A stretch of 64,000 bases of DNA from NCBI GenBank assembly GCA_033032865.1, contig JAWHQI010000005.1, positions 6,906,001 through 6,970,000 of the forward strand. The letters run 5' to 3'. Position 1 is the stretch's first letter. Each line of letters begins with the position of its first letter. The translations under genes were made by a program, and so were the position numbers. The stretch is from Dactylorhiza incarnata (Eukaryota; Streptophyta; Magnoliopsida; Asparagales; Orchidaceae). Positions 2,976-56,639 of the stretch are shown in pieces. The notes under the pieces were generated by a model. It worked only from the letters and a program-made list of their open reading frames with translations, was not told the DNA's origin and made no database searches.

Positions 2976-3495
2976 CTGCTGAGGTGAAGTTACCTTCTGA
3001 AAAGGAGAGAGACGGTCAGGTAACTAACGTCGGGGATCATGGAGTGGAGGGAGCTACGAGAGCGGAAGTAGCAAGACACTGATGATAATGATAAAGAAAG
3101 ATAACAGAGGTATAAGTCTAAGAGGAGGTATATGTCTAAGAGGTGGTGCGGGTTGTGTGATAGCCCGAGGAGTATGAATGATAGCAAAGGAGGATACATA
3201 GGTAGGGGAAGGAGAGGTGGTAAAGAGAGGAGGGATCTCGGGAGTAAGATACCCGCCATCCTTGGAGAAATAAGGGTTAAACTAACAAAAATGTGACATC
3301 AGCAGAGACAATGACGTTTGGAGAGAGGGTCAAAACAGTGATAGCCCTTCTGAGTAGGAGTGTACCCCACAAAAATACACTTGGTGGCACGAGCGAAGAG
3401 TTTATCCCGGCCAGGCGCGGGAGTGTGGACGAAGGCAGTACAGTCAAACACACAAAGAGTGAGGTAAAAAGAAGTACCATCCAAATGAAGAAGAG
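2976..3495 (-). pseudogene. R1 integrase C-terminal part and linker
   Basis: The minus-strand frame ending near 3299 shows the Copia integrase C-terminal signature: 'FVHTPAPGRDKL' and 'ATKCIFVGYTPTQKGY', followed by the short 'KRH' step that precedes the linker to reverse transcriptase. 2976-3290 is the poorly conserved linker. At 3495 the frame is cut by R2. It resumes on the other side of R2 at 7985 when one copy of the duplicated AAGAG is disregarded. Confidence 0.75.
3491..3495. repeat. Target-site duplication of R2, left copy (AAGAG)
   Basis: AAGAG directly precedes the TGATGCGG end of R2 and is repeated at 7985-7989 directly after the inverted end. The R1 integrase frame is continuous if one copy is removed together with R2, which confirms the insertion boundaries. 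Confidence 0.85.
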
Positions 3496-4903
3496 TGATG
3501 CGGAGCAGAGACGAGGACGAGTTTTGGACCCATTCGGGGCTGATTTGGCGACTTACCATATATGGCGTTCCCGGATTGACGATCGGACTCCGCAGATGTG
3601 TTCGGATTCGCGTTGCGAATCAATTTGATATATTGGTTTATGAATTTGGACTTATTATTGTTTTATTTTAGGCGTTTTCCATCCGGCCAATCATAGCCGT
3701 TGATTGGGATGCCCTAGTTTTGGTTTTAATTATAAATAGGCTCTTAGGGGGCTGATTTGAGGCATTGCAGAATTTGGAGAGAACTATTCCCGGATTCCAG
3801 CGATCACCCCGCGGTGCCGACGCCGTGGAACCCTAGGTGACGACTCCTAGGCTTGTATCTTCCTCCCCAAGGTATCCCCTAACCCTAGGCTCCTTCCTCC
3901 CCCTCCAAAGCCCCTTGCCGCCACCCTCAAACCCCCCAAAACCCAGCCACCAGTGGATGGCCTACTGTCCAGAATTCCAGCCTTCTCTATAGCACTATTT
4001 GATGAAATTTACTATTCATTCCTATGGTTTATTCTCCCAATTGAAAACAGCAGGCCTACTGCCTTCCCAGCAAACCACCCCGCCTACCTACTTCCCCCAT
4101 CCAGCCGCACCCCTACCTCCAGCCACCTTTCTCCTTGCTGCCAGACATCAACCGCCCCCTCCCTTACCTCCAGCGGCCCTTCCTCCTTGCCGCCCCCCCC
4201 CCACCCCTTCCAACAGCCACCCCACTCCTCCGCTGCCTTATCCGAACACCCCCTTCCTCCTCCCACGTGGATCCACCTCTCTTACACCCTAAAAACGCTA
4301 GATCAGTCCAGATCTAGAGTTTTGCCTCTCGATCCGTTATTTCCACCATCATACGCCCTCCCGCACCCCGGATCCGCTATCACACATCGGATTCATCCAT
4401 TCCCCACCCGGATCTATCTCCTAGTGGCCGGATCTATCCATTTCCGGCCCGATCTCCTTATTTTCCGCCAAGGACAGCCACCGCCATATCGTCACGCCTC
4501 CGGTTCCACCTTCGATCGCCGATCTACATACCCGGACCCGGATTCTTCATTGCCTTGGTCAGCCCACTACTTTGTGAGTCTAATTTGTATTGGATTATTA
4601 TTTTCAACATATTTATATTGGATTGGATCTCGTACCTGTTTTGGATATCTTGCATAGTAGTTGTTTGCTAGAATATTATTGTGATTTGCAGGATTTATTC
4701 GCCGCGCGCTCTTGCCTTGGCCCTCCACGCGGAGGAAAGCCTAAACCTGTTTCGCCCTAATTTAATTATTGTATCTTGTTGTGAATCATCTGCGTGGGAT
4801 GTTATTATTTATTATTCAATTGTAATTTAATCTGTCGGGCTTTGCATAGCATGTAGGGTTAGGTCGCCGATTCTCTCGCCGCCTATAGATTCGTCCTGCG
4901 TCA
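3496..4903 (+). repeat. R2 left LTR
   Basis: The LTR begins TGATGCGGAG and ends ...CTGCGTCA just before the primer site. A TATA-like TATAAATA lies at 3731-3738. The long C-rich stretch at 3890-4300 gives proline-rich open frames that are not genes. The inverted copy is at 6575-7984. Confidence 0.8.
3731..3738 (+). promoter_or_regulatory. TATA-like box in R2 left LTR
   Basis: TATAAATA lies about 240 bp into the LTR. In the right arm the matching site reads TACAAATA, so only the left copy keeps the consensus. Confidence 0.5.
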
Positions 4904-4905
4904 AT

Positions 4906-4917
4906 TGGTATCAAAGC
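4906..4917 (+). other. Primer binding site of R2, left arm
   Basis: TGGTATCAAAGC follows the LTR end by two bases and matches the usual plant primer site for initiator tRNA-Met, with one change from the common TGGTATCAGAGC. Confidence 0.75.
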
Positions 4918-4972
4918 ATAGGTTGCGCGCACTTTTCGATACGCAGTCGTAGAGTCTATAGGATTTTTCATT

Positions 4973-5770
4973 ATGTAAAGGTGTCACGATTATCATGATT
5001 ATTCCTCCCCTCACTTTGGAGGTCTCGAGTCCACTAGCACCCGCTCTCACAGAGCCCCGTCAGGGAGATTTTCACGTTACTACGACGATTATTCTCGATC
5101 GCAGCACACCACTTTTAGAGATCGTGTTGACCCACCGACACGAGACCACTACACTAGAGACAATCAGTATGATGGTTGTCGTCGTTCTTATCCGTACACG
5201 CGAGCAGATTGTGTTGATCCTTCGACACGACTCGGTTACCTTAGGAATGATTATTATGAGGATCGTCGTTCCGAGAGAGATCTTGAGAGTCAGTTTCGTA
5301 TTGCCGCCCCTTCCTTTGACGGCTCATCGAGTCCCGAGTCTTTCAGTTATTGGCTCGTGGATACGGAGTATTATCTTGACCATTTTGAGGTATTCGGTGA
5401 GCGTCGCGTCAAGTTTGCGAAACTTAGACTTTTAGATCAGGCGAGGGCATATTGGGCTAGCGTTGAGAGGACACGCGAGCGAGACCGTCTACATCGCGTC
5501 ACTAGTTGGGTGGACATGAAGCGTACATTGTGTCAGAGGTATCTACCTTCGTCGTATCGGAGTCGCTTGCTCGACCAATTATTTTCCCTTCAGCAAGGAT
5601 CCATGTCCGTCACTGAGTACAGAGATCGCTTTGATGAGTTAGTTGTGAGGAGCGATATCCGAGAGAACTCAGCCATGACCTCTTGCAGATTTCGGTCTGG
5701 CCTTCGATCAGACATTCGTACTGAGGTGGTTTATCGAGCTATGATAAACCACCTCAGTACGAATGTCTGA
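4973..5770 (+). pseudogene. R2 left gag (truncated, stop at codon 2)
   Basis: This is the left-arm copy of the gag described at 5708-6505. Here the start ATG (4973) is followed at once by TAA, where the right arm has TAT. Beyond that stop the frame is open to the palindrome centre and reads on into the other arm to a stop at 5768. It contains the Retrotrans_gag-like segment with 'YWASVERTRER' and 'SMSVTEYRDRFDEL'. Everything downstream (zinc knuckle, protease, pol) is absent. Confidence 0.75.
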
Positions 5771-6505
5771 TCGAAGGCCAGACCGAAATCTGCAAGAGGT
5801 CATGGCTGAGTCCTCTCGGATATCGCTCCTCACAACTAACTCATCAAAGCGATCTCTGTACTCAGTGACGGACATGGATCCTTGCTGAAGGGAAAATAAT
5901 TGGTCGAGCAAGCGACTCCGATACGACGAAGGTAGATACCTCTGACACAATGTACGCTTCATGTCCACCCAACTAGTGACGCGATGTAGACGGTCTCGCT
6001 CGCGTGTCCTCTCAACGCTAGCCCAATATGCCCTCGCCTGATCTAAAAGTCTAAGTTTCGCAAACTTGACGCGACGCTCACCGAATACCTCAAAATGGTC
6101 AAGATAATACTCCGTATCCACGAGCCAATAACTGAAAGACTCGGGACTCGATGAGCCGTCAAAGGAAGGGGCGGCAATACGAAACTGACTCTCAAGATCA
6201 CTCTCGGAACGACGATCTTCATAATAATCATTCCTAAGGTAACCGAGTCGTGTCGAAGGATCAACACGATCTGCTCGCGTGTACAGATAAGAACGACGAC
6301 AACCATCATACTGATCGTCTCTAGTGTAGTGGTCTCGTGTCGGTGGGTCAACACGATCTCTAAAAGTGGTGTGCTGCGATCGAGAATAATCGTCGTAGTA
6401 ACGTGAAAATCTCCCTGACGGGGCTCTGTGAGAGCGGGTGCTAGTGGACTCGAGACCTCCAAAGTGAGGGGAGGAATAATCATGATAATCGTGACACCTA
6501 TACAT
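5708..6505 (-). CDS. R2 right gag (Ty3-gypsy-type, truncated at palindrome centre)
   Basis: The frame encodes 265 aa. The start ATG at 6505 lies downstream of the primer site. The N-terminal half is rich in Arg, Tyr, Ser and Asp. From about residue 105 a Gypsy Retrotrans_gag-type domain follows, seen in 'SYWLVDTEYYLDHFEVFGE', 'ARAYWASVERTRER' and 'QQGSMSVTEYRDRFDEL'. Normal gag would continue to a CCHC zinc knuckle. Here it meets the palindrome centre after about 250 residues, and the last dozen residues are encoded by the opposite arm. The product would be a capsid fragment only. Whether it is expressed cannot be told from sequence. Confidence 0.7.
   Translation of the reverse strand: MYRCHDYHDYSSPHFGGLESTSTRSHRAPSGRFSRYYDDYSRSQHTTFRDRVDPPTRDHYTRDDQYDGCRRSYLYTRADRVDPSTRLGYLRNDYYEDRRSESDLESQFRIAAPSFDGSSSPESFSYWLVDTEYYLDHFEVFGERRVKFAKLRLLDQARAYWASVERTRERDRLHRVTSWVDMKRTLCQRYLPSSYRSRLLDQLFSLQQGSMSVTEYRDRFDELVVRSDIREDSAMTSCRFRSGLRSDIRTEVVYHSSINHLSTNV
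5736..5742. other. Centre of the R2 palindrome (7-base loop)
   Basis: The spacer GAGCTAT lies between TTATC (5731-5735) and GATAA (5743-5747), and full-length complementary arms extend from there. The spacer and the 5-bp stem fit a snap-back priming point. Confidence 0.8.
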
Positions 6506-6560
6506 AATGAAAAATCCTATAGACTCTACGACTGCGTATCGAAAAGTGCGCGCAACCTAT

Positions 6561-6572
6561 GCTTTGATACCA
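6561..6572 (-). other. Primer binding site of R2, right arm
   Basis: On the minus strand this reads TGGTATCAAAGC, two bases inside the right LTR end. It is identical to the left-arm site and in opposite orientation. Confidence 0.75.
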
Positions 6573-6574
6573 AT

Positions 6575-7984
6575 TGACGCAGGACGAATCAATAGGCGGC
6601 GAGAGAATCGGCGACCTAACCCTACATGCTATGCAAAGCCCGACAGATTAAATCACAATTGAATAATAAATAATAACATCCCACGCAGATGATTCACAGC
6701 AAGATACAATAATTAAATTAGGGCGAAACAGGTTTAGGCTTTCCTCCGCGTGGAGGGCCAAGGCAAGAGCGCGCGGCGAATAAATCCTGCAAATCACAAT
6801 AATATTCTAGCAAACAACTACTATGCAAGATATCCAAAACAGGTACGAGATCCAATCCAATATAAATATGTTGAAAATAATAATCCAATACAAATTAGAC
6901 TCACAAAGTAGTGGGCTGACCAAGGCAAAGAAATCCGGGTCCGGGTATGTAGATCGGCGATCGAAGGTGGAACCGGAGGCGTGACGATAATGGCGGTGGC
7001 TGTCCTTGGCGGAAAATAAGGAGATCGGGCCGGAAATGGATAGATCCGGCCACTAGGAGATAGATCCGGGTGGGGAATGGATGAATCCAATGTGTGATAG
7101 TGGATCCGGGGTGCGGGAGGGCGTATGATGGTGGAAATAATGGATCGAGAGGCGAAACTCTAGATCTGGACTGATCTAGCGTTTTTAGGGTGTAAGAGAG
7201 GTGGATCCACGTGGGAGGAGGAAGGGGGTGTTCGGATAAGGCAGGGGAGGAGTGGGGTGGCTGTTGGAAGGGGTGTGGGGGGGCCGGCGGCAAGGAGGAA
7301 GGGCCGCTGGAGGTAAGGGAGGGGGCGGCTGATGTCTGGCAGCAAGGAGAAAGGTGGCTGGAGGTAGGGGTGCGGCTGGATGGGGGAAGTAGGTAGGCGG
7401 GGTGGTTTGCTGGGAAGGCAGTAGGCCTGCTGTTTTCAATTGGGAGAATAAACCATAGGAATGAATAGTAAATTTCATCAAATAGTGCTATAGAGAAGGA
7501 TGGAATTCTGGACAGCAGGCCAGCCACTGGTGGCTGGGTTTTGGGGGGTTTGAGGGTGGCGGCAAGGGGTTTTGGAGGGGGAGGAAGGAGCCTAGGGTTA
7601 GGGGATACCTTGGGGAGGAAGATACAAGCCTAGGAGTCGTCACCTAGGGTTCCACGGCGTCGGCACCGCGGGGTGATCGCTGGAATCCGGGAATAGTTCT
7701 CTCCAAATTCTGCAATGCCTCAAATCAGCCCCCTAAGAGCCTATTTGTAATTAAAACCAAAACTAGGGCATCCCAATCAACGGCTATGATTGGCCGGATG
7801 GAAAACGCCTAAAATAAAACAATAATAGGTCCAAATTCATAAACCAATATATCAAATTGATTCGCAACGCGAATCCGAACACATCTGCGGAGTCCGATCG
7901 TCGATCCGGGCACGCCATATATGGTAAGTCGTCAAATCAGCCCCGAATGGGTCCAAAACTCGTCCTCGTCTCTGCTCCGCATCA
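6575..7984 (-). repeat. R2 right LTR (inverted)
   Basis: This is the inverted partner of 3496-4903. On the minus strand it runs from TGATGCGG (7984) to ...GCGTCA (6575). It differs at scattered bases, including T to C in the TATA-like box. The very low divergence suggests a recent origin for the palindrome, or ongoing correction between arms. Confidence 0.8.
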
Positions 7985-7989
7985 AAGAG
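7985..7989. repeat. Target-site duplication of R2, right copy (AAGAG)
   Basis: AAGAG immediately follows the inverted TGATGCGG end of R2 and matches 3491-3495. Confidence 0.85.
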
Positions 7990-8590
7990 TAAAATGTGTC
8001 TTACCATAAAGAGTAGAAGAAGACAGAAGATTAATGAGAAAAGAAGAAATGAGAATTGCATGATCCTAGTAGCTGAGGGGAACATTCATTTGGCTTAAGG
8101 GTGTTTGAGAAATATCGAGAAGATGACGATTTTTCCGGATAAATGATATCATTAGAGTTACAAACAAAAGGAAACAGCTGGCATATATTCCTTCGCATTA
8201 TCTGCCTATATAAATTTTAGGGCAAGACTAAACTGAGTGCGGATTTCGTTATAAAATTTATAGAATACAGAGAAGAGTTCAAGACATTCTTTTAAGAGAT
8301 ACACTTAAGTACATCTAAAGTAATCATCATTAAAAGTAACAAAATACAAACTTTCTCCACCAACAGACTTGGTGGCACTAGGACCGCAGATGCCCCGAAT
8401 GAACATGGTCAAAAGGATGTACAAAACACATACAAAGTTTGGCTGAAAAAGTAGTGCAATGATGCTTTTCATATTTGCAGGCTTCACAATCTAAAATAGA
8501 CTCGGATTGAAAAGACGGCAGGAGCCGGTGGACGAGACAAAATGAAGGATGATCAGACAGTAATGTCACTGAAGCAGTGAAATTGAGATG
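7985..8590 (-). pseudogene. R1 integrase N-terminal part
   Basis: On the minus strand, 8300-8570 shows the pre-integrase to integrase transition of a Copia element: 'CEACKYEKHH' (remnant of the zinc-binding finger) and then a 'FDHVHSG...GPSATKSVGG' segment and 'FVTFNDDY', which correspond to the conserved first-Asp region. 7985-8100 carries the segment ending near the 'FLIN' motif and joins in frame to 3495 across R2. A stop interrupts it near 8070. It is inactive. Confidence 0.75.
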
Positions 8591-14065: not shown

Positions 14066-14109
<44 letters not shown>

Positions 14110-32660: not shown

Positions 32661-33864
32661 TGTTGAAAATGTTGAAGTGGAAATTTGTGTGGTTGGCGGT
32701 CTGGGGGGGGGAGACCGCGCGGTCTGGTCTGACCGCACGGTCTTGCGGTCTCCTCTGGCAGTCTGACCTCTCTGGTCTAGTCGCGGACTATTTGGCGTGA
32801 CCGCCGTTCTTCTGTCCAAGGGTGCTGAGGTGAGGCCGCGCGGTCTGGTTGTGTGACCGCGTGGCAAGCTGTCTTCTGTTCGGTGTAACCGTGCGATCTG
32901 GTGCTTGTGATCGCATGGTGGGGGCAGCCCGGTCTGGTGGCTGTCCGGTCTCTTTGTGGTGCGCGCGGACTAAGGTCTTCTTAGTCGCGCGGTCTCCGGG
33001 TTGTGTTCGCATAGCTGGTCCTTCGGCAATCTGCTGGTATATGCGGTCACAGGTGTTTGGTCGACTTGGCGGGCTGTTGTCCTAGTCGGCCTGGTGTGTT
33101 CGCGGTCTCTGGAGGAGGTCGGGTGGCGAACACAGGTGGTGAGCGTCATAACCGGGCGAGTTGTCATGATCGCGTAGCTTCTGTTGAAGTCGACAAGCTC
33201 ACTAAGCAGAAGGATCTTTTTGCTGATCGCGCGGGTTGATCGGTCTGGTCGCACGGTCAAGGTGGTGACCCTATCTCATAGGGTGGTGACTGGATCAGGT
33301 CTCACGCCTATAAATAGGAGCCACTGTAGCAACAAAATCAATCGCACCAAGTGTAAGCAGAGCTCGCGGCTAGTTCTTGCGGTCTCATTTCTTGTGATCG
33401 GTCGGTTTTGCTGATTGAACTTCTTTTGTGCAGCTTCTGCGGATTGTGCGGGTAGCCGCGATCACCTCCTCTTCTGAAGGTGTTCGGGCGGTCTCGCAGC
33501 TTGCAGTGCGGGTTGCTGGAGTTCGGGAGGATCAGTGATAGGTCGCGGGGTTCTCAGTTGGTGTTGTTCAAGTCGAAGGCAGACAGTTCGGGCGGTCTCC
33601 TTTCCTAGTCGCGCGAACTCGCAAGTCGGGCGGTCAGGCGGTCTCAGAATTTCAGACCGCTGGTTATCTTTCAGCAGTGTATTTTTTCTCCTATTTTTTG
33701 TGTACTTGCGAAATCATGTCTCGCCATGTATACCTCGCCTTGTAATGAAGTTTTCTGCTAGCATCAATAAAGATTGAAGTTGTTTTTCATGTGCTTCTGG
33801 TTGTTGGCTTGAACTTTGAGTTATACTATTCCTGCTCACTCCTAGATCTATGGAAAATTTCACA
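32661..33864 (+). repeat. R8 5' LTR
   Basis: 1204 bp with TGTTG...TTCACA ends. It is unusually GC-rich and studded with CGCGGTCTG-type repeats. TATAAATA lies at 33309-33316 and AATAAAG at 33765-33771. Confidence 0.9.
33309..33316 (+). promoter_or_regulatory. TATA box in R8 5' LTR
   Basis: TATAAATA in the context CCTATAAATAGGAGCC. The same site is at 45779-45786 in the 3' LTR. Transcription would start about 30 bp further on. Confidence 0.65.
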
Positions 33865-33877
33865 TGGTATCAGAGCC
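33865..33877 (+). other. R8 primer binding site
   Basis: TGGTATCAGAGCC directly follows the LTR and is complementary in type to the 3' end of initiator tRNA-Met. Confidence 0.85.
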
Positions 33878-33952
33878 AGGTTGGAGTGGATAGAGCAGTG
33901 ATTAACTCATAGTTGTCATCGCCTTTGTGAAGAAGGAACCAGTGGTAGAGCC

Positions 33953-34888
33953 ATGAAAGCAAGGGGTCTTGGAATTGAGATGCTCAACTCGACTAACTTC
34001 AAGAAGTGGAAGTCTTGTATGCAGAGTTATCTTCTGGGTGAGGACCTCTGGGAGGTGGTTGGAGGAGAGAGCACGGAGGAAGTTATCCTGATTGGGGATA
34101 ACAGTCATGAGGTGAGGAACTGGAGGCAGATTAATGCCAAAGCAGAGTTCGCCCTGAAAAGGGCAATATCACCTGATTTGTTCGATCACATTTTGGGGTG
34201 TGGATCAGCTGCTGAGATCTGGAGAGCCCCGGATGGTCTGTTTAACAAGAAGAATGTGGCAAGACTTCAATTCCTGGAAAATGAGCTGGCCAGATCGGCT
34301 CAAGGTGATCTTTCTATCTCTACGTTCTTCTTGAAGATGAAGAACCTGTGTGCTGAGATTTCAGCACTGGATCCTGATGAGCCAATTTCTGAGGCGAAGC
34401 TGAAGATGCACATCATCTGTGGCTTGCGGAAGGAGTATGTGGCCTTTGTGACATCGGTGCAGGGTTGGGCAAATCAACCGTCTCTGCTGGAGCTGGAAAA
34501 TCTGCTTGCGTCGCAGGAGAGTCTGGCAAGGCAGATGGCGGGGGTGTCAGTGTCTAGGGGAGAAGGCGAGGTTCTCTTCACGGGGAAGAAGAAGAAGTGG
34601 GATAAGAAGAAGAAGACCGCTGGAGGAGGCAATGAGCCTTCAACTTCTGGACAGCAGGAGAGGGGCTATGCTCCTAAGGCTGAAGGGAAGAAGAAGGGAG
34701 AAGGTCCCAAGTGCTTCAGGTGCGGGAAGCTTGGTCACATCAGGAAGGATTGCCGGGTGAATCTTCAGCCAGGGCATGTTGCTGCAGGAAAGGAGGAAGC
34801 TGAAGCCAGGCAGATTGATGGAGGATGGGGAGGAGCCTTCTCGACTTCTGTTGGAGCTGCGGCTCCTATCAACTATCAGGAGGACTAG
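33953..34888 (+). CDS. R8 gag (Copia)
   Basis: 311 aa, uninterrupted. The ATG at 33953 lies 76 bp after the primer site. The capsid part (Retrotran_gag_2/UBN2 type) shows 'MLNSTNFKKWKSCMQSYLLG', 'EDLWEVV', 'LFDHILGCGSAAEIW' and 'FFLKMKNLCAEISAL'. A basic Lys-rich stretch (about residues 212-245) precedes a canonical CCHC knuckle 'CFRCGKLGHIRKDC' (34713-34754). The frame ends at an amber codon in the exact phase of pol, where related elements have the Trp before the protease 'VDSG' motif. Gag and pol were therefore one polyprotein, split by a single-base change. Confidence 0.88.
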   Translation: MKARGLGIEMLNSTNFKKWKSCMQSYLLGEDLWEVVGGESTEEVILIGDNSHEVRNWRQINAKAEFALKRAISPDLFDHILGCGSAAEIWRAPDGLFNKKNVARLQFLENELARSAQGDLSISTFFLKMKNLCAEISALDPDEPISEAKLKMHIICGLRKEYVAFVTSVQGWANQPSLLELENLLASQESLARQMAGVSVSRGEGEVLFTGKKKKWDKKKKTAGGGNEPSTSGQQERGYAPKAEGKKKGEGPKCFRCGKLGHIRKDCRVNLQPGHVAAGKEEAEARQIDGGWGGAFSTSVGAAAPINYQED

Positions 34889-35881
34889 ATCGTGGACTCG
34901 GGGTGTGGTCATCACCTCACCGGGGACGAGTCGAAGCTTACTTCAGCACAGCCCTACTCAGGTAATAATGTCATTATAACTGCTGATAATACCGTGCATA
35001 GTGTCGAGAATGTGGGGGTTGTTTCCTTGGGCAGTGATAGAGGGACACTAACTTTGAAGAGTGTCTATCATGTGCCCGGAATGAGGAAAAACCTCTTCTC
35101 CGTGACCAACGCTGTAGACGCTGGGTATCACGTTCTATTTGGCCCAACAGAAGTGAGGTTTCTTCGAAATGTTGAAACAGTGAAAGCGGAGGTCGTTCAT
35201 GTGGGGAGAAGGGCAAAAAACTTGTTCGTTCTATCAACAAGTTCTTATGCCGACAAGATGAGGATGAATGATAGTGCCGTGATATGGCACGAGAGGTTGG
35301 GGCATGTAGGAATGGATAAGCTGAAGGCTATGGCGGTGAAAGGTCTTGTCAAGGGCCTGCCTAGTCTATCCTCCTACGGAGATGGTCATATTTGCGCAGG
35401 ATGTCAGTTCGGCAAGTCTCATCAACTACCGTTTGATAAGTCGCAAACAAGGAGTAGTGTGCCGTTGGAGTGCATCCACGGTGACTTGATGGGACCGACT
35501 GCTACCCCAAGCCTCGGAGGCAACATGTATATGCTGGTGTTGATCGATGATCACACCAGATATGTCTGGGTTTATTTCTTGAAGGAGAAGGCGGAGGCGT
35601 TTGCCAAGTTTGTAGAGTTCAATGAGCTCGTGGAGGGTCGGCTAGGTCTGCGGGTTAAGAAGCTGAGAACTGACAACGGAGGGTAGTTCACCTCTGGTGA
35701 GTTCTCTAGTTTTTGCAGGAAGGCGGGCATCTGAAGGGAGCTTACTTGTGCACATACTCCACAACAAAACGGAGTTGCAGAGCAGAAGATCCGTCATCTG
35801 ACGGAGACCTGCAAGTGTTGGCTGCATGCCAAGAGTATCCCAAAGTCCTTCTGGGCGGAGGGAATGTCTTGTGCTGCTTAC
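34889..35881 (+). pseudogene. R8 protease, finger and integrase (first part)
   Basis: In the gag frame. Protease 'IVDSGCGHHLTG' (34889 on) is followed by 'VYHVPGMRKNLFSV', the integrase finger 'WHERLGHVGMDKLKAM' ... 'CAGCQFGK', catalytic 'HGDLMGP', 'LVLIDDHTRYVWVYFLKEKA' and 'LRTDNGG' (second Asp). An amber codon at 35684 replaces the residue expected after it, and TGA follows at 35731. The TPQQNGVAEQ motif (35756 on) carries the final catalytic Glu. R9 interrupts at 35882-35886. Confidence 0.85.
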
Positions 35882-35886
35882 ATCTG
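35882..35886. repeat. R9 target-site duplication, left copy (ACATC)
   Basis: It pairs with ACGTC at 41080-41084 (one change). The R8 integrase frame resumes after it. Confidence 0.75.
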
Positions 35887-37756
35887 TTGGAACCTTAGTT
35901 TTGATTTGAGTTAGGATCCACCTTTAGTATCTAAGTTTATATCATAATATATCTTACAACTTAGATTAAATATTCTATTAAGTTAAAAGGCTGAAAATGA
36001 TATATATATATAAATAATATAGTAAGAATAATATATATATAATAATAGGCTAAATAATATAAGAGAAAATAATATAAGAGAAAATATTATAAGAGAAATT
36101 AATATAAGTTAATATAAGAGAAGAAATATATTTCATATATTAGCTGCGTTCGACGAACGTCGAACAGCGCTCAGCATTCGTCGGACGGCGCCCGACGAAC
36201 AGATCATATTTTATAGCAGCGCTCGACAGATTACAGCAGGGAAGCTGCGGTCGACGAATGACGAACAGCGGTCGATGAATTCCAACCAGAACAGCGGTCG
36301 ACGAATGACGAACAACGGTCGACGAATTCCAACAGATGTTCAAAAACAGTAAAATTAATAATCCGGTCGATGAACCAAATGATGAGCTCGACGAACATAG
36401 AGCTCCGCTAGACGAATTTCTTCCAGTAATATTTTATATTATTTAGCTTGACTAAAATATATATTTGCTATAAGATTTATTTAAAGTAATATCTTATTTA
36501 TTTTATTTATATATTGCTATATATATTGTTGATTTAACCTTACAGCGTGAAGCATTTAATGCTGTAGCCATTTGGCAGCAAAGTATTTAATACTGTAGCC
36601 GTTGCAGCAAGTCAAAGACGGCAAGTTATGTTCTCAAGGATCTGGGAAATGAAAGAGACTTTACTCCCTTCCTCTTTGGTCGGTAAGAATTCAAATTAGC
36701 CGAAAGAAGACAACAGCTCTTTTACACGACAGCAGGAAGCATTCCTTATATACAGTAGAATATATTACAGCAGAAGATATATCAGAATATATACAGTTGT
36801 TCTCTCTTAATATATATATACAGAATATATATTGCTGTACAGATCTAACATAGATATAATATATATTACAACTGCTGTACAGGAATTAGAGAACAAGGAG
36901 AAGAAAAGAAAAGGAAGAACAGAGCAAAAAGAAGAACATATCAGAATATATATTATCTTCTTTTTGCTAATCCTTTTCTTGCAGATCTTCTATACATATC
37001 CTGAGACACCAAACCAATATTACTTGCTCAGGATCTAAAAATGCAAGAAGAAGAACAGAGGATTTGCAACCAAGAGAAGGAGCCTCCACAAGCTGTCATC
37101 AAACATAATCAGACAGGGGGAGCTCTCTTCAACAACATCATCATCAAGATCCAACTGAACATCTCATCATGATCTTCAAGTGTCTTCTCAGCAAAAGAGA
37201 AGAACAACATCTGTTTTCTTTATTTATTCCTCCAATCTTGTAAAGGGTTAAAACTCCCTTCAAAAGTTTACTCCCGGTGACAGGCCACCTTAGCAAAAAC
37301 CTGCAGCTTGGTTTCTAAGCACCTGATCAAAAACTTATAGGTGAATTGGGCACCTGATCAAACCTCCATTGGTGTGCGGACACCTAAACAAAAACACCTT
37401 GGTGTGTGGGCACCAGATCAACTCTCCTAATGGATTCCTACCAGTGGGTAGAAGAGTAGATGTACCCAGTTGAGGGGAACTACAATATATCTTGTGTCAT
37501 CTGGATTGCTTGGTTTGCTTGTTGTTTTATTTCTTATTATTGCTGTGATATTTTTATATGCTTCTACTGTTTGATTTTATTTCTCAATCAGCAATCAGCA
37601 AACATCATATGTATTTATATATATCACCTATTTTGAAAGCAAACTTAAACAAGAGTTTTAACAGATAAATAAGAACTAAACTCTCCTTTCAATTGGTATC
37701 AAAGTAGGTTGATTTTATCAATCACCCTCATCAGAGGATATCAATTGTCCCTTTCA
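35887..37756 (+). repeat. R9 5' LTR
   Basis: 1870 bp with TGTTGGAACC...CCCTTTCA ends. It includes a CG-rich motif array (36140-36420), TA-rich tracts, a repeated CACCTGATCAAA block (37300-37425) and, near its end, an internal primer-site-like sequence (37694-37704). Confidence 0.88.
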
Positions 37757-37840
37757 ATTGGTATCAGAGGTGGTTGATTTTATTTTTTCAATTTCTTGCA
37801 TCTGATACTCAATTGAACCCCTTTCAATTGGTATCAGAGG
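37694..37840 (+). other. Three tandem primer-site blocks in R9
   Basis: CTTTCAATTGGTATCAAAG (37686-37704), CTTTCAATTGGTATCAGAGG (37751-37770) and CTTTCAATTGGTATCAGAGG (37821-37840) follow each other at 65 and 70 bp. The LTR of R9 ends at the second CTTTCA, so the first primer site lies inside the LTR. Confidence 0.88.
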
Positions 37841-37924
37841 AGGTTGATTTTTTTTACATAGGCTAACACCTGAAATCACAAAGATCACCTTAGTTCTTAT
37901 TTGTTTTTAAAAAGACTTTTCCAA

Positions 37925-38377
37925 ATGGCATTAGCAGAGTTTCTATTTTCAGATCCACCTTTATGTAATTTGGATAGTATTGATTTATGGCAAATTAGAA
38001 TTAAGTTATATATGAATGCCATAGATGGAAGTATTTACAAATCTGTTTTGACAGGAATTTCATCTTCAATCTCTTCATCTGATGATAAAGAAAAGTTGAT
38101 CAGTGCTGATGCCATAGCCATGGAGATATTGGCTAAATCAATGTCTCATGACATTCTTCAAAAAGTTGATGATTTCACTTCAGCAAAGGCCATCTGGAAC
38201 TCCCTCTCTAGGATGGTAAATAAATCCATTCCTACTTCTTCCACTAACTTTACTTTTGATGCAGAGCCATCATTCACTCTAAGTGAAGAAGAAGAAAAAG
38301 AAGAACAAAAAGCCAAAATTTTTTGCATGTTGGCTATATATGGTTCAGATTACAAATCTGATGCAGAATCTGAATAA
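37925..38377 (+). pseudogene. R9 gag fragment (SIRE type)
   Basis: The frame reads 'MALAEFLFSDPPLCNLDSID', 'LWQIRIKLYMNAIDGSIYKS', 'ADAIAMEILAKSMSHDILQK' and 'KAIWNSLSRMV', colinear with the first 120 residues of R12 gag. It then jumps to an acidic segment 'EEEEKEEQKAKIFCMLAIYG' that corresponds to the gag C-terminus of R12. The middle of gag, with the zinc knuckle, is deleted in frame. Confidence 0.8.
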
Positions 38378-39196
38378 GAAAAGGGAAAAGAGGTAACATC
38401 ATTTCCTAATTTTACCTCTGAAAATTTCAGATCTGTTTTCACATCACCTTGTGCAGGTCTACAAATTTCTGAAAACAGAATCAGTAAAAAGCTATTAATA
38501 AACAAATTATGTTCTGATAAAATTAAAGAAGATTTTAAAACATTAGAAAAACACATTATCTGTTTAAAAAATAAGTTCATTAAAGCTAATAAATTTGAAC
38601 AACCTGTTAAAAAGAAAATTATGTATGTTCGGCAAAATAAAAATAAATTTACAAATTCATACTTTAATGAAATAAAAAGGCCAACATACCTATCTATAAG
38701 GCAATTTTGTTTTAACAGTATAATGTTTTTACTTAAATTATAATTAAATTAAAACATCAGTTTTAAGTTTCTTTTGAATTTTCTATCATTAAAAATAATG
38801 TCAGATAGACTTCACTTTCTTACAGATTTTTTTTCTCCTAAAATCATGTTGAGCATTCTACTGTAGTTGCATTGATCAAGAATGATCATGACACTGAGTG
38901 TGAGTCTCTTCTGATTAGAGAGGATTCTATAGAAAGAAGCTATCAGATATTGTCTTTCTGATTATAAAAATTCCTAGAATCTGTTAACAGCTAGCAATTC
39001 ATTTCATTTAAATTCCTATTTTAATCAAGATTTAGGAAATTAGAAATTGCTCAGTTTTAAAAAAAAATTTAAAAATAATCTCTAACCCTTAAGCTACTCA
39101 AGACTTTTATGCTTAGGAATCCTAAACCAAATAAGGGGAGATTGTTAGAACCTAGTCTTTATTTGGATTAGGATCCCAACTCAAATATGGGGAGAT
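38378..39196 (+). pseudogene. R9 gag-pol linker and integrase scraps
   Basis: AT-rich sequence with weak similarity to the R12 coiled-coil linker (38400-38650), then a short integrase piece around 'STVVALIKNDHDTE' (about 38855). The polypurine tracts ATAAGGGGAGAT (39131-39142) and ATATGGGGAGAT (39185-39196) are each followed by an LTR-start-like TGTTRGAACC. Confidence 0.65.
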
Positions 39197-41079
39197 TGTT
39201 GGAACCTTAGTTTTGATTTGAGTTAGGATCCACCTTTAGTATCTAAGTTTATATCATTATATATCTTACAACTTAGATTAAATATCCTATTAAGTTAAAA
39301 GGCTGAAAATGATATATATATATAAATATACTAAGAATAATATATATATAATAATAGGCTAAATAATATAAGAGAAAATATTATAAGAGAAATTAATATA
39401 AGATAATATAAGAGAAGAAATATATTTCATATATTAGCTGCGTTCGACGAACGTCGAACGACGCTTAGCATTCATCGGACAGTGCCCGACGAACAGATCA
39501 TATTTTATAGCAGTGCTCGACAGATTACAGCAGGGAAGCTGCGGTCGACGAATGACGAACAATAGTCGACGAATGACGAACAACGGTTGACGAATTCAAA
39601 CCAGAACAGCGGTCGATAAATGACGAACAACGGTCGACAAATTCCAACAGATGTTCAGAAACAGTAAAATTAATAATCCGGTCGACGAACCAAATGATGA
39701 TCTCGACGAACGTAGAGCTACGCTCGACTAATTTCTTCCAGTAATATTTAATATTATTTAGCGTGACTAAAATATATATTTGCTGTAAGATTTATTTAAA
39801 GCAATATTTTATTTATTCTATTTATATATTGCTATATATATATTGTTGATTTAACCTTACAGCGTGAAGCATTTAATGTTGTAGCCGTTTGGCAGCAAAG
39901 TATTTGATATTGTAGCCGTTGCAGCAAGTCAAAGACGGCAAGTTATGTTCTCAAGGATCTGGGAAATGAAAGAGACTTTACTCCCTTCCTCTTTGGTCGG
40001 CAAGAATTCAAATTAGCCGAAAGAAGACAACAACTCTTTTACACGACAGCAGGAAGAATTCCTTATATACAACAGAATATATTACAGCAGAAGATATATC
40101 AGAATATATACATCTGTTCTCTCTTAATATATATATATATATACAGAATATATATTGCTGTACAGATCTAACATAAATAGAATATATATTACAACTGCTG
40201 TACAGGAATTAGAGAACAAGGAGAAGAAGAGAAAAAGAATAACAGAGCAAAAAGAAGAACAGATCAGAATATATATTATCTTCTTTTTGTTAATCCTTTT
40301 CTTGCAGATCTTCTATACATATCCTGAGACACCAAACCAATATTACTTGCTCAGGATCTAAAACTGCAAGAAGAAGAACAGAGGATTTGCAACCAAGAGA
40401 AGGAGCCTCCACAAGCTGTCATCAAACATAATCAGACAGGGGGAGCTCTCTTCAACAACATCATCATCAAGATCCAACTGAACATCTCATTAGGATCTTC
40501 AAGTGTCTTCTCAGCAAAAGAGAAGAACAACATCTGTTTTCTTTATTTATTCCTCCCATCTTGTAAAGGGTTAAAACTCCCTTCAAAAGTTTACTCCCGG
40601 TGACAGGCCACCTTAGCAAAAACCTGCAGCTTGGTTTATAAGCACCTGATCAAAAGCTTATAGGTAAATTGGGCACCTGATCAAACCTCTATTGGTGTGT
40701 GGACACCTGAACAAAAACACCTTGGTGTGAGGGCACCTGATCAACTCTCCTAGTGGATTCCTACCAGTGGGTAGGAGAGTAGATGTACCCAATTGAGGGG
40801 AACTACTATATATCTTGTGTCATCTGGATTGCTTGGTTTGCTTGTTGTTTTATTTCTTATTATTGCTATGATATTTTTATATGCTTCCACTGTTTGATTT
40901 TATTTCTCAATCAACAATCAGCAAACTTCTTATGTATTTATATATATCACCTATTTTGAAAGCAAACTTAAACAAGAGTTTTAACAGATAAATAAGAACT
41001 AAACTCTCCTTTCAATTGGTATCAAAGCAGGTTGATTTTATCAATCACCCTCATCAGAGGATATCAATTGTCCCTTTCA
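39197..41079 (+). repeat. R9 3' LTR
   Basis: 1883 bp, very similar to 35887-37756. It ends CCCTTTCA directly before the ACGTC target copy, which proves that the primer-site-like TGGTATCAAAG at 41018-41028 is inside the LTR. Confidence 0.88.
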
Positions 41080-41084
41080 ACGTC

Positions 41085-41866
41085 ATCAACAGAATGCCTC
41101 TCAGTCCTATCAATATGTTGACCCCGCATGAGATGATGTTCAAGGAAGAGCCAAGCGTAGCACACCTTCGGGTGTTTGGTTCCACCTGCTATGTGCACAT
41201 TCCAGATACGCTTCGAACGAAGCTAGATACAAAAGCAAGGAAGCTAGTCTTCGTGGGATATGATGATCGGAAGAAGGGCTGGAAGTGCATGGACCCGGAG
41301 ATGCGGAGATTTGTTATATCTCGCGACGTCGTGTTTGACGAGGTAACGTCTTACAAGGGTTGTTCTGGTGTTGAGCTACCAGAAAACAGGGTAGAGGAGC
41401 CGGAGACAGCTGTGGAAAATCTTCAGGTGGAGCTGCCTGTGTCACCAGGTGGTCCTTCTACTTCTAGCTCTGAGACGGAGGTTTCTGGATCAGGAAGTAG
41501 GGGGAGCGATGCTCCTAGTACGTCTGGAAGGGGAGCTAGAGAAGAAGCACCTGAGGATGTTGCGAGTTAGGGGAAGGAGCTGAGGAGATCAAAGCGAACG
41601 ATCATTGCCCCTGATCGCTATACAGGAGGAAACATGGTGAGCTTTGTCTCATGTTTCTTTGCTGGTCCCTTGGATGAGCGGGAACCAGTGAGCTTCGAGA
41701 AGGCCAAAGGCGTGGAACAGTGGGATTCAGCTATGCAGGAAGAGATGAGTGCTCTTGAGAAGAATGAGACTTGGTCTCTGGTGCCCAGGCCCAATGGTAT
41801 CACCCCTGTGACATGCAAGTGGGTCTATAAGCTTAAGAAGAAGACTGAGGGCAGTATCGAGCGATA
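41085..41866 (+). pseudogene. R8 integrase C-terminus and start of reverse transcriptase
   Basis: It continues the R8 integrase: 'INRMPLSPINMLTPHEMMFK', 'HLRVFGSTCYVHIPD', 'KARKLVFVGYDDRKKGWKCM', then a Ser/Gly/Glu-rich linker with an amber/ochre-type break at 41568. Reverse transcriptase begins 'WDSAMQEEMSALEKNETWSL' and 'VPRPNG...CKWVYKLKKK' and stops where R10 inserts (CGATA, 41862-41866). Confidence 0.85.
41862..41866. repeat. R10 target-site duplication, left copy (CGATA)
   Basis: Exact match with 43770-43774. The R8 reverse transcriptase frame resumes directly after it. Confidence 0.85.
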
Positions 41867-43769
41867 TGAAAGGAAAGTTTAGTTCTTCTTTATCTTATTA
41901 AAAGATCTTGCTTCAGTTTTACTTTCAAAATAAATGATATATATAAATATAAATGTGTTTGCTGTATGAGTAATAAAAAAACAGTAAGGAAGCATAAAAA
42001 TCACAGCACACAAATAAGAAATAAAACAAGCAAGGCACATCACATCCAGATGACAAAAGGAAATATAGTAGTTCCCCTCAACAAGGTACATCTACTCTTC
42101 TACCCACTGGTAGGAATCCACTGGAAGTTGTTGATAAGGTGCCCTCACACCAAGGTGTTTTTGATAAGGTGCCCACACACCAATGAGAGTTTTGATCAGG
42201 TGCCCAATTCACCTATAAGCTTTTGATAAGGTACTTATAAACCAAGATGCAGGTTTTTGCTAAGGTGGCCTGTCACCGGGAGTAAACTTTTGAAGGGAGT
42301 TTTAACCCTTTACAAGACGAGAGGAATAAAAGAAAACAGAAAAGATTATGCTGTTCTTCTCTTTTGCTGAGAAGACTCTTGATGAAGATGTTGAAGAGAG
42401 CTCCCCCTGTCTGATGTAGTTTGATGACAGCTTATGGATGGAGCTCCTTCTCTAGATTGCAAATATTCTTCTTCTTGCAGTTTTGATCCTGAGCAATTGA
42501 TAGTGTTTGGTGTCTCAGGATATGTATACGATCTGCAAGAAAAATGTTTAGCAAAAAGAAGATAATATGATTTGATCTGCTTCTTCTTTTTGCTATGTTC
42601 TTCTTTTTCTCTTCTTCTTCTTCTTCTCTTTTTCCTGTACAGCAATATGTAATATATTCTGTGTATATTCTGTATATCTATTCTGTACAGCAATATATGA
42701 TATATATGTAATCTGTCGAGAGAGACAACAGTATATTATTCTATTATATATATAATCTGCTGTATATTATCTGCTGTATAAAAAGATGCTTCCTGCTGTC
42801 GTGTAAAAGATGTTGTCCTCTTTCCTGGCTAATTTGAATCCTTGCCGACAGAAGAGGAAGGATATATTATCTCTTTCTTTTTCCAGAAACTCGAGCAGAA
42901 CAAAGTCCTTCTTTAGCTTGCTGCAACGGCTACAGCATTTATTGCTTTGCTGTCAACGACTATATCATTCAATGCTTCACGCTGTAATGTCAGATCAACA
43001 ATATATATATAGAAATATATAAATAGAAATAATAAATATTGCTTTAATAAAGTCTGACAGCATATTAGAATAAGAAATATAATACTGCATAAATTTCGTC
43101 GAGCTGAGGTTCACGTTCGTCGAGCTCATCATTTGATTCGTCGACCTGAACATGTGATTTACTGTTTCTGAACTTCTGCTGAATATTCGTCGAACGCAGA
43201 CTTGAGTTCGTCGAACGGAAGGATTCGTCGACCGCTGAGCTTGAATGATTTCGTCGACCGCTGAAGTATTGAGCTGTTCATCGAACGCAAATGGTCGTTC
43301 GTCGAACGCAGGATTTTGTCGACCGCTGAGCTGGGGTCTGTTCGTCGACCGCTGAGATTGAGTAGAGGCATCGAGCGCTGAATCACTGAGACGGGATCGT
43401 CGAGCGCTGAGATAATAGATCTTCGTCTACCGCTGAGATAGCTGGATTTCGTCGAGCGCAGAATGCACGCCATTCGTCGACCACAGGACGCCATTCGTCG
43501 ACCGCAGATCGCCATTCGTCGAACGCAGATCGCCATTCGTCGAACGCAGAGAATATATGTAAATTTAATTCTTCTCTTATTATTCAGCCAATTAAATATG
43601 TCTCTTTTCAGCTTTCTTTCTTAATAGGATTTATTCTAAGTTATAAGATATATTATGATATAAACTTAGACACTAAAGGTGGATCCTAACTCAAATCAAA
43701 ACTAAGGTTCCAACAATCTCCCCCTATTTGAGTTGGGATCCTAATCCAAATTAAGACTAGGTTCTAACA
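41867..43769 (-). mobile_element. R10: solo LTR of the R9 family, minus strand
   Basis: 1903 bp with CGATA duplicated on both sides. On the minus strand it begins TGTTAGAACCTAG and ends ...CTCTCCTTTCA. Compared with the R9 LTR it starts 54 bp earlier (including the second polypurine tract, 43716-43727) and ends 65 bp earlier (before the first primer site). A solo LTR arises by recombination between the two LTRs of a full element, so R10 records the LTR borders of its parent. It includes the CG motif array (43095-43550). Confidence 0.88.
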
Positions 43770-43774
43770 CGATA

Positions 43775-45137
43775 CAAGGCTAGCCTTGTGGCTCGGGGAT
43801 TCTCACAGCAATACGGTGAAGACTATGAAGAGACATTCAGTCCGGTGGCCAAAATGACTTCAGTTCGGGTTGTGATTGCCTTGGCGGCAAGTTGGGGGTG
43901 GGAGATTTGGCAGCTCGACGTAAAGAATGCATTCTTGTACGGAGAGATTGACAAGGACATCTTCATGGTCCAGCCGCCAGGCTTCGTGTCTGAAGATTTT
44001 CCTGACTATGTCTGCAAGTTGAAGAAGGCCCTGTATGGGTTGAAGCAAGCGCCGAGGGCGTGGTATGGAAAGATAGCAGAATATCTCCTATTCTGTGGGT
44101 TTGGTGCTTCAGACTCAGACTCAAGCTTGTTCGTCAAGAAAAGCGGGGAGCTTCAAGTCGTCGTGCTTCTTTACGTCGACGATATGATCGTGATGGGGAA
44201 TTCGAAGGAGGAGGTAGCAAAGCTTCAGGCTGAGCTATCTATCAGGTTCGAGATGAAGGACTTAGGTGAGCTTCACCATTTCCTTGGACTCGAAGTGCAG
44301 AGGAAGGGAAGTGGAGTGCTGGTATCCCAGGCTGGATATGCGAAGCGAATCGTGGAGCGGTTCGGCATGAAGGAAGGGAAGTGCATTTCCACACCTTTGG
44401 AGAAGGCCATGAAACTTCGCAAAGATGAGGGGAGGATTTTGGAAGATCCGCTGGTGTTCTGAGCTCTGGTTGGGAGCTTGATTTATCTGACGATCACTAG
44501 GCCGGATATTGCGTATGCAATTGGCAGGGTGAGTCGGTATATGGCGGAACCACGGATGCCTCATCTTTTAGCGGCCAAGAATATATTGAAGTATGTCAAG
44601 GCGACTTCGGATACGGGTCTCTTTTACAGGAGGGATGCGGGCTTCGAGGTGCATGGGTACATGGTTGCTGATTACGGGAGGGATTCAGATGATCGGAAGT
44701 CGATGTCTGGATACGTCTTCATGGTGGGCCCCACGGCTATATCATGGTGCAGCAAGAAGCAGGATTCCGTGTCGGTCTCCACCACGGAAGCGGAATACAA
44801 GGCTTCGGCCTTGGCAGCTTAAGAAGCCATCTGGCTTAAGAGGTTGGTAGGAGACGTCCATAAGGAGTTTTGGGGTCCGACTCTGCTCCGCGGCGACAAT
44901 GAGAGTGCTCTCAAACTGGTTACTAATCCAGTTTGTCACGCGAGGACCAAACATATCGAGATCGAGCATTATTTCATTCGTAAGAAGGTGCTGGAGGGGT
45001 CTCTTTCGGTCGAGCATGTTCGGAGTCAGGACAACATTGCTGACATATTCACAAAGGCGCTGGCGAAGGGGCCGTTCACTCGACTAAGGAGTTTACTTGG
45101 GCTGTTTTCAACTTCCCACTTCAAGGGGGAGTGTTAA
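43775..45137 (+). pseudogene. R8 reverse transcriptase and RNase H
   Basis: The Copia RVT_2 domain resumes with 'LVARGFSQQYGEDYEETFSP' (just upstream), 'VAKMTSVRVVIALAA', 'WQLDVKNAFLYGE', '[15 protein letters not shown]' and the catalytic 'LLYVDDMIVMG' (44166 on). It has 'FLGLEVQRKGSG', a TGA at 44461, then 'SLIYLTITRPDIAYAIGRVS'. RNase H shows 'SMSGYVFMVGPTAISWCSKK', 'STTEAEYKA', a TAA at 44820, 'LRGDNESALKLVTNP' and 'ARTKHIEIEHYFIRKK'. The final stop (45135) overlaps the 3' LTR by a few bases. Only two stops break this part. Confidence 0.9.
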
Positions 45138-46334
45138 AAATGTTGAAGTGGAAGTTTGTGTGGTTGGCGGTCTGGGGGGGAGACCGCGCGGTCTGGTCTG
45201 ACCGCACGGTCTTGCAGTCTCCTCTAGCAGTTTGACCTCTCTGGTCTAGCTGCGGACTATTCGGCGTGACCGCCGTTCTTCTTTCCAAGGGTGCCGAGGT
45301 GAGGCCGCGCGGTCTGGTCGTGTGACCGTGTGGCAAGCTGTCTTCTGTTTGGTGTAACCGCGCGATCTGGTGCTTGTGATCGCATGGTGGGGGCAGCCCG
45401 GTCTGGTGGCTGTCCGGTCTCTTTGTGGTGCGCACAGACTAAGGTCTTCTTAGTCGCGCGGTCTCCGGGTTGTGTTCGCATAGCTGGTCCTTTGACGATC
45501 TGCTGGTATATGCGGTCACAGGTGTTTGGTCGACTTGGCGGGCTGTTATCCTAGTCGGTCTGGTGTGTTCGCGGTCTATGGAGGAGGTCGGGTGGCGAAC
45601 ACAGGTGGTGAACGTCATGACCGGGTGAGTTGTCTTGATCGCGCAGCTTCTGTCGAAGTCGGCAACCTCACTAAGCAGGAGGATCGTTTTGCTGATCGCG
45701 CGGGTTGACCGGTCTGGTCGCGCGGTCAAGGGTGGTGACCCTATCTCATAGGGTGGTGACTGGATCATGTCTCACGCCTATAAATAGGAGCCACTGTAGC
45801 AGCAAAATCAATCGCACCAAGTGTAAGCAGAGCTCGCGGCTAGTTCTTGCGGTCTCATTTCTTGTGACCGGTCGGTTTTGCTGATTGAACTTCTTTTGTG
45901 CAGCTTCTGCGGATTGTGCGGGTAGCCGCAGTCACCTCCTCTTCTGAAGGTGTTCGGGCGGTCTCACGGCTTGCAGTGCGGGTTGCTGGAGTTTGGGAGG
46001 ATCAGTGACAGGTCGCGGGGTTCTCAGTTGGTGTTGTTCAAGTCAAAGGCAGGCAGTTCGGGCGGTCTCCTTTCCTAGTCGTGCGAACTCGCAAGTCGGG
46101 CGGTCAGGCGGTCTCAGGATTTCAGACCGCTGGTTATCTTTCAGTAGTGTATTTTTTCTCCTGTTTCTTGTGTACTGGCGAAATTATGTCTCGCTATGTA
46201 TACCTCGCCTTGTAATGAAGTTTTCTGCTAGCATCAATAAAGATTGAAGTTGTTTTTCATGTGCTTCTGGTTGTTGGCTTGAACTTTGAGTTATATTATT
46301 CCTGCTCACACCTAGATCTACGAAAAATTTCACA
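45132..46334 (+). repeat. R8 3' LTR
   Basis: 1203 bp, near-identical to 32661-33864. It has a TATA box at 45779-45786 and AATAAAG at about 46234. CAAGA, the right target copy, follows at 46335-46339. Confidence 0.9.
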
Positions 46335-46516: not shown

Positions 46517-46522
46517 TGTTGG

Positions 46523-46527
46523 ACATG
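46523..46527. repeat. R12 target-site duplication, left copy (ACATG)
   Basis: Exact match with 56635-56639. It lies within the first bases of the R11 LTR. Confidence 0.88.
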
Positions 46528-48460: not shown

Positions 48461-48462
48461 AT

Positions 48463-48473
48463 TGGTATCAGAG
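48463..48473 (+). other. R12 primer binding site
   Basis: TGGTATCAGAG lies two bases after the LTR end. It is a single copy here, unlike R9. Confidence 0.85.
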
Positions 48474-48575
48474 GGCTGTTGATCTTATTTACAGGCTAAC
48501 ACCTGGATCACAAAGATCAATTAGATCTTAAATTATTTTAGAGTTTTTACTGTTTTTATTTTCTGTTAAAAACTC

Positions 48576-49814: not shown

Positions 49815-50640
49815 TCAGAAGTAGAAACTGATGCAGATCAGGTAATATCTACCTTTGATTTTACTTCAGTTGAATTCAAAGCTGAATTCAAAGTCCTTTG
49901 CTCAGACTTAATTAAATCTGAGAAAGAAATAATCTTACTCAGACTTAAGCTAGCTGAAATGAATAATATAAGTGAAGAAAATATAAATCTTAAGAAAGAT
50001 TTGGCTGACTCCAGATAACATATTGTTCTCATTGAGTGCAAGTTGTCCGAAGCCAAGAAATTTGAAGAATCCCTAAATGGGAGAAGCATCAAGCTGATGG
50101 ACATTACAAGCACAGTAAATGCTAGACTTAATAGCAAACTGGGCTTGGGTGCTTCATCAAGTGAGCCACCTCTAATTAAGAAGAATATATTATCTACACC
50201 TATAAAATTCATCTCTGCTAAGAGCAAAGAGGTTGTAGATGAAGATAAAAAACATTTCAAGCAAGTCTGTTATGAATAAAAGAATTCAGAAGAATTCGTC
50301 GAACGAAGCTCGACGAAAAGATTTCAATTTGTCGAACGGAGATCGACGAAAACTGAGAACAGATTTTCAATATAGTTATTACATGAACGACGCTCGACAA
50401 AATCATGTACATTCGTCGAACGGCGATCGACGAACTTACCCAAATTCGTCGAACAGATACTATACAGAAAATTTCAAGAATTCTAATTCAAAGCAAACTA
50501 AAAATCCTTTCACTGAATGGATTATACCTCCAAGGAGATATCATCCACAAGGTTACAAGGACCAACCTGAAATATCTTTTAATTCAGATTTTTGTGGAAA
50601 TACAAAAAGACCCAAGGTAATCTGTGTCAGGAACAAATAG
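49815..50640 (+). pseudogene. R12 gag-pol linker (coiled coil plus motif array)
   Basis: In the gag frame after the stop: a Lys/Glu/Leu-rich heptad region ('CSDLIKSEKEIILLRLKLAE'), an ochre codon near 50018, then 'EAKKFEESLNGRSIKLMD' and 'RLNSKLGLGASSSEPP'. The frame then shifts and an Arg/Asn/Ser-rich segment (50280-50470) is encoded by repeated TCGTCGAAC/TCGACGAA motifs. It ends in 'CVRNK'. R13 has the homologous linker at 62972-63652. The role is unknown; such linkers are found in SIRE elements. Confidence 0.75.
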
Positions 50641-56634: not shown

Positions 56635-56639
56635 ACATG

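Follow-up and report, generated by a model that had tools for sequence, protein, structure and literature searches.

Organization of the Locus

The window analyzed here, a 64,000-nucleotide stretch of the genome of the orchid Dactylorhiza incarnata (contig JAWHQI010000005.1, positions 6,906,001 to 6,970,000), contains at 3496–7984 a long terminal repeat (LTR) retroelement in the form of an inverted duplication. Two inverted arms, each made up of an LTR, a primer-binding site (PBS), and part of gag, cover 2240 bp (3496–5735) and 2242 bp (5743–7984) and are separated by a 7-bp center, GAGCTAT (5736–5742). The inverted repeat ends exactly at the LTR termini, and the sequence AAGAG adjoins it on both sides (3491–3495 and 7985–7989). 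This arrangement, proposed in a preliminary description of the locus, is confirmed by self-comparison of the window, which revealed no further arm copy. The palindrome had been supposed to be perfect but is not quite so: the arms are 98.5% identical, with 28 substitutions and 6 gap columns making up 34 differences over an alignment of 2244 columns. Between 2501 and 9000, 3404 20-mers have a reverse-complement partner, versus at most 3 in 200 base shuffles, which excludes a chance origin of the repeat.

The left LTR (3496–4903, plus strand, 1408 bp) has TGATGCGG at its outermost, unique 3′ (U3) end and CCTGCGTCA at its inward, unique 5′ (U5) end; the right LTR (6575–7984, minus strand, 1410 bp) also has its U3 end outermost. 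The limits of the left LTR agree with those of five normal relatives (TG start, CA end, and 5-bp target-site duplications [TSDs]), and the overall form, TG...CA (TGATGCGG...GCGTCA) with a 5-bp TSD, is that of an LTR retrotransposon. Because the same relatives identify TGATGCGGAGCAGAG... as the start of U3, both outer ends are U3, as first claimed, in place of the normal direct order with one U3 and one U5 outer end. A PBS with the sequence TGGTATCAAAGC, which we take to be of the initiator-methionine type, lies at 4906–4917 (plus strand), and its counterpart at 6561–6572 (minus strand). A TATA-like box, TATAAATA, with a putative promoter role is found in the left LTR (3731–3738, plus strand); the right arm has TACAAATA, the change (3733/7747) being private to that arm.

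The gag fragments occupy 4979–5735 (plus strand) and 5743–6556 (minus strand). Both contain the Retrotrans_gag domain (PF03732; E 5.6e-16 and 3.4e-16), the gag part of the gag and pol domains that mark a Ty3/Gypsy-type element, and both arms end within gag, where they meet with no internal third LTR of the kind found in template-switch complex insertions. Just upstream of the left fragment, 4976–4978 reads TAA; the third base is T in the right arm and in all eight relatives compared, so this is a nonsense change private to the left arm. Folding of the center together with both arms at the DNA level is a trivial consequence of the palindrome, and the region folded only to 5747 is no more stable than shuffled sequence (z −0.35).

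Target Site

The insertion interrupts the C-terminal (SH3) region of a decayed Copia integrase encoded on the minus strand, one portion of which lies at 3299–3490 (PF25597, E 2.4e-18 on 3299–3493) and the other at 7990–8137. The target frame had already decayed, with in-frame stop codons of its own. When the unit and one AAGAG are removed, it aligns through the junction to a Copia open reading frame (ORF) at 50948–52345 of the same window (106 columns, 43.1 bits); if both copies of AAGAG stay in place, the alignment reaches no further than the junction (52 columns, 34.3 bits). Rejoining the target does not extend the Pfam SH3 match, which is confined to one side of the junction. The early observation that a Copia integrase frame closes on removal of the unit and one AAGAG holds, for a frame that is itself decayed. 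The frame rejoins only when one AAGAG is removed, which shows that the palindrome entered in a single integration event that produced a 5-bp TSD.

Normal Relatives and Rarity of the Palindrome

A search of the window's own 3.27-Gb genome with the arm gave 68 matched places, from 40 scored of 6893 candidates; the window alone among them has two facing arms (rows read by eye). Five of the matched relatives have two direct LTRs (TG...CA), a total length of 5.6–5.7 kb, and 5-bp TSDs (GCAGC, CCATT, CCTAC, AAAAC, and CCTTG, the last two taken from the flanks after the cut was shifted by eye). The second LTR is preceded by a purine-rich stretch, CGGGGAGAT in four relatives and CGAGGAGAT in one, and the LTR pairs differ at 10/1410, 15/1412, 11/1411, 11/1411, and 9/1412 positions. 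No arm match was found in 201 kb of arbitrary stretches from the same genome; Rfam gave no matches, the viral and bacterial collections gave no match or pattern matches only, none of them a relative, and in a protein search with gag none of 1366 candidates scored.

The preliminary description had suggested looking for a full-length gag-pol parent; the five normal copies are short. In a further copy (C66; L055:2–1981, minus strand), the 1.98-kb internal part consists of a single 660-codon open frame that continues the gag frame (by eye); its sole domain match is an integrase-tail SH3 (SH3_Tf2-1, PF24626, E 9e-08), with no pol core domain. The frame reads as if protease, reverse transcriptase, and integrase core had been deleted in frame, and the family, judged from this one copy, resembles a derivative in which an internal deletion has spared gag and the integrase tail and which would need enzymes supplied in trans. 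Non-autonomous TR-GAG elements are defined by LTRs, a PBS, a polypurine tract, and one gag ORF, without pol. Five of the present relatives measure 5.6–5.7 kb, and the single open frame of C66 shows no pol core domain but an integrase-tail SH3.

The U3 terminus occurs at 916 places genome-wide with up to three mismatches (453 forward and 463 reverse), and a reversed-pattern control gave none. Among the best 100 of these, neighboring pairs within 15 kb comprise 36 on the same strand and one, the window locus, on opposite strands; a further 21 places add six direct pairs and, by eye, none in opposite orientation. A search for other copies with U3 on both sides, proposed at the outset, has in this way returned one inverted pair, the window, against 42 direct pairs among 121 of the 916 places, those with 0–1 mismatch and therefore closest to the window copy. 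Further listing added three single U3 ends; there may be other palindromes among the remaining 792 places. The palindrome would be a dead end by the normal cycle, because it has no sense 3′ LTR and no polypurine tract, and this status fits a one-off.

The Switch Point

The parental sequence at the break was read from 351 bp around the arm end in 16 of the 32 relatives whose match reaches that end; four of the 16 (L029–L032) look alike and may be duplicates, leaving fewer independent copies. In the relatives, TTTATC (or a one-base variant) is followed by ATAGCTC (15/16) or ATAACTC (1/16) and then by GA (16/16); after GA comes A in 14 and G in two, never T, and gag runs on beyond the loop sequence and GA in all 16. 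Read inward along the right arm, the palindrome has TTTATC-ATAGCTC-GA-TAAACC: once past the loop and GA, the strand turns into the reverse complement of itself. The left-arm strand leaves the parental sequence directly after TTTATC.

The center (5736–5742) is accordingly a putative snap-back loop, ATAGCTC on the minus strand followed by the GA of the primer strand, and the new strand starts no more than 9 nt from its own 3′ end, compared with an arm of 2240 bases. Because the right-arm strand follows the parent for 9 nt beyond the symmetric arms, the right arm is assigned as the fold-back primer and the left arm as the copy. The primer strand runs from U3 into gag, a make-up that only plus-strand DNA possesses under the established scheme of reverse transcription, as outlined in PMC3187697. 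Primer strand, loop, 2-nt match, and direction are read directly from the sequence, and the switch point is resolved to single bases. A test for a heritable palindromic family found none: all 16 relatives read are normal at the break, and 42 of the 43 neighboring U3 pairs within the 121 listed places (of 916) are direct.

Divergence of the Arms

When the arms are compared with eight relatives, 32 of the 34 differing columns prove private to a single arm (17 left, 15 right), and the other two are each shared with one relative; private substitutions number 13 per arm. Both shared columns are transitions, so parallel change is likely there. The arms are mutually nearest by identity (98.5%, against at most 98.4% between an arm and any of the eight relatives), and they are sisters in a tree, with modest support (82/86). 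In 15 control pairs drawn from six close relatives, 31–60% of differing sites have both states elsewhere (507/1074 pooled; the comparison rows included both window arms). The corresponding figure for the arms is 2/28 substitutions (binomial P 0.003 versus the lowest control, for sites that are not independent). The arms were probably identical at birth; the evidence for this is good, though short of strong. An origin of the arms in two clearly different RNAs is rejected on the site patterns, 32 of 34 columns being private to one arm.

Dating of the arms against the family LTR pairs, as had been recommended, gives nominal ages of 0.48 million years (My) for the arms and 0.25–0.41 My for the five relatives, with a grass rate of 1.3e-8. 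Eight of the 20 transitions between the arms are in CG context, three in CHG, and nine in CHH, a distribution that is not decisive. In gag from 4979 onward, five differences are amino acid changing and one is silent (about 71% changing expected without selection); these are too few to weigh.

Proposed Origin and Alternatives

The most probable origin, to which we assign a probability of about 0.72, is that the locus stems from a short LTR retrotransposon of Gypsy type, apparently without pol, whose plus-strand cDNA snapped back, was made double-stranded as a palindrome, and integrated once. The plus strand would start at the polypurine tract, exactly at U3, and copy the LTR followed by some 840 nt of the interior (PBS, leader, and part of gag). 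Its 3′ end would then fold back, the last two bases, GA, pairing with TC upstream over a 7-nt loop, and synthesis would copy the strand's own gag, PBS, and LTR back to the U3 start, leaving a hairpin open at one end only. Most likely, another plus strand, likewise begun at U3, would then anneal to the displaced new arm and extend through the center by a kind of strand displacement-assimilation; two identical hairpins annealing to each other would do as well. The resulting duplex would carry U3 on both sides, each strand starting at U3, and integrase supplied in trans would join both ends to the Copia element, duplicating AAGAG. The acting polymerase, the second-strand step, and the supply of enzymes in trans are the parts of the scheme that we infer. 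Acceptance of two U3 ends by integrase is plausible because the outer termini of U3 and U5 are similar (TGATGCGG versus TGACGCAGG).

The idea of a palindromic cDNA made during reverse transcription and then integrated, put forward in the preliminary description, is supported by the normal family, the base-level switch point, the arm differences, and the TSD with its rejoined frame. Several points weigh against a snap-back origin. The primer match, at 2 bp, is very weak, and intermediates have not been seen; a simple hairpin has one U3 end, and the extra step needed leaves no trace in the sequence. By tree path the right arm is equally near to one relative (L038) and to the left arm (0.015 each). 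Thirteen further control pairs that included two distant rows gave only 3–33% shared sites, so the contrast between arms and controls holds for close relatives only. No base is common to both arms yet absent from all eight relatives; the founder must therefore have carried the sequence usual in the family, and what speaks for a single founder is the lack of arm differences that recur in other copies. The LTRs of the palindrome also differ more (21/1408) than those of normal family pairs (56/7056; Fisher P 0.02), which implies either that the insertion is older than the copies compared or that palindromes mutate faster. Finally, two near-identical RNAs are a possible source of the arms.

This last point leads to an intermolecular switch, in which the plus strand of one cDNA jumps onto that of another within one particle, the arms stemming from two RNAs. 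Such a switch would yield two U3 ends with less extra synthesis, and it agrees with the lack of a base unique to both arms. Its ingredients are known: a co-packaged RNA pair and plus-strand displacement-assimilation have been described in retroviruses (PMC3187697), and template-switch complex insertions in cereals (PMC1950507). With 32 of 34 differing columns private to one arm, however, the two RNAs would have to be nearly identical, and nothing in a jump between molecules requires landing within 9 nt of the primer's own end, as is seen; we regard this route as unlikely. Somewhat less likely again is host repair of a broken linear cDNA, which would have been resected, folded back at its plus-strand end, and extended by a host polymerase before integrase acted. 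Polymerase theta is an example of a repair polymerase of this kind. The 2-nt match and small loop fit this account too, and alternative end joining is mentioned in work on retrotransposon circles; the polymerases are not separable by sequence, and the break lacks other signs of end processing.

Events after insertion, or errors of assembly, are very improbable. Inverted duplications do form in chromosomes, but a rearrangement of a normal insertion would have to stop at the exact outer base of the LTR and recreate AAGAG beside it; both this and two nested opposite insertions face matching TSDs around two U3 ends and a Copia frame that rejoins with one TSD removed. An assembly artefact, such as a palindromic chimeric read, comes to mind because the locus is represented here by an assembly, and we judge it equally improbable: the palindrome stops where the LTRs end, next to TSDs, 13 substitutions are private to each arm, and the locus lies inside a 34.4-Mb contig. 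Both explanations were set aside in view of the TSDs at the LTR ends, the private arm mutations, and the rejoined target frame.

Other Elements in the Window

A Copia-type element at 32661–46334 has 1.2-kb LTRs that are 95% alike (32661–33864 and 45132–46334) and a gag domain (PF14223). Between these LTRs lies an apparently nested repeat pair (35885–41080), consisting of two 1.9-kb direct repeats (94% alike and LTR-like) around approximately 1.4 kb; beside it, a related stretch (41867–43769; 79–85%, with a piece of approximately 180 bp at 91%) is inverted, forming another head-on arrangement. A second Copia element (46521–56646) has repeats of approximately 1.95 kb that are 93% alike and carry 21-bp tandem repeats, together with gag, integrase core, and SH3 domains. 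A run of 42 G is present at 14068–14109.

Implications

The locus records, to the base, a normally invisible step of reverse transcription, in which the plus strand appears to have turned on itself and still yielded an integrable product. If this is true, the integrase that served this retrotransposon family can make do in vivo with two U3 ends. Element finders look for LTRs in direct order, and insertions of this kind may have been overlooked for that reason; inward-facing LTR pairs with matching TSDs suggest themselves as a search pattern missed by direct-repeat methods.

Comparison with Known Systems

In DIRS-like or fold-back elements, inverted termini are the normal form of the whole family. 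The present family does not conform to this, with 42 direct pairs and one inverted pair among the 121 of 916 places listed. Normal family members (for example, C1657:507314–512953) share with the palindrome the LTR, PBS, gag, and U3 start, at up to 98.4% identity to an arm, and differ in having their two LTRs in direct orientation, with U3 outermost at one end and U5 at the other, and 5-bp TSDs. No precedent for an integrated palindromic LTR element with two U3 ends was found in searches of open-licence papers; in a paper on tandem LTRs (PMC11899658), “palindrom” occurs 0 times and “inverted” solely in the reference list.

The nearest described case is that of the template-switch complex insertions in cereals (PMC1950507). 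These likewise result from one integration of a fused cDNA flanked by 5-bp TSDs, which the window displays in its AAGAG copies and rejoined target frame. They carry a third, internal LTR, and their two core regions run in the same direction, the result of a switch between two R regions; the window palindrome, in contrast, has a direction-reversing switch within gag, and both its outer ends are U3. Retroviral autointegration products and inverted circles (PMC5314604) are also aberrant retroviral DNAs with inversions, but autointegration gives extrachromosomal circles, whereas the window appears to hold a product of fold-back synthesis inside a chromosome.

A possible functional parallel is offered by Muk (Mu killer) of maize, a rearranged MuDR whose transcript is a 2.4-kb hairpin RNA that silences its family (PMC2563033). 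As in Muk, a transposon has been turned into an inverted duplication of similar arm length, and the left LTR of the palindrome keeps a TATA-like box facing the center (3731); a transcript initiated on the left would fold into a hairpin with an arm of approximately 2 kb, as that of Muk does for MuDR. In this respect, palindromic loci lend themselves as candidate sources of hairpin RNA directed at silencing the parent family. A broader proposal is tentative and, on balance, doubtful: that plus-strand snap-back and two-U3 integration are a recurrent outcome of LTR retrotransposition, each insertion being a ready long-hairpin locus that could feed small RNAs against its own family. Muk arose from a DNA transposon and its silencing is reported (PMC2563033), whereas the palindromic insertion in the window is a single example, well documented at the level of sequence alone.

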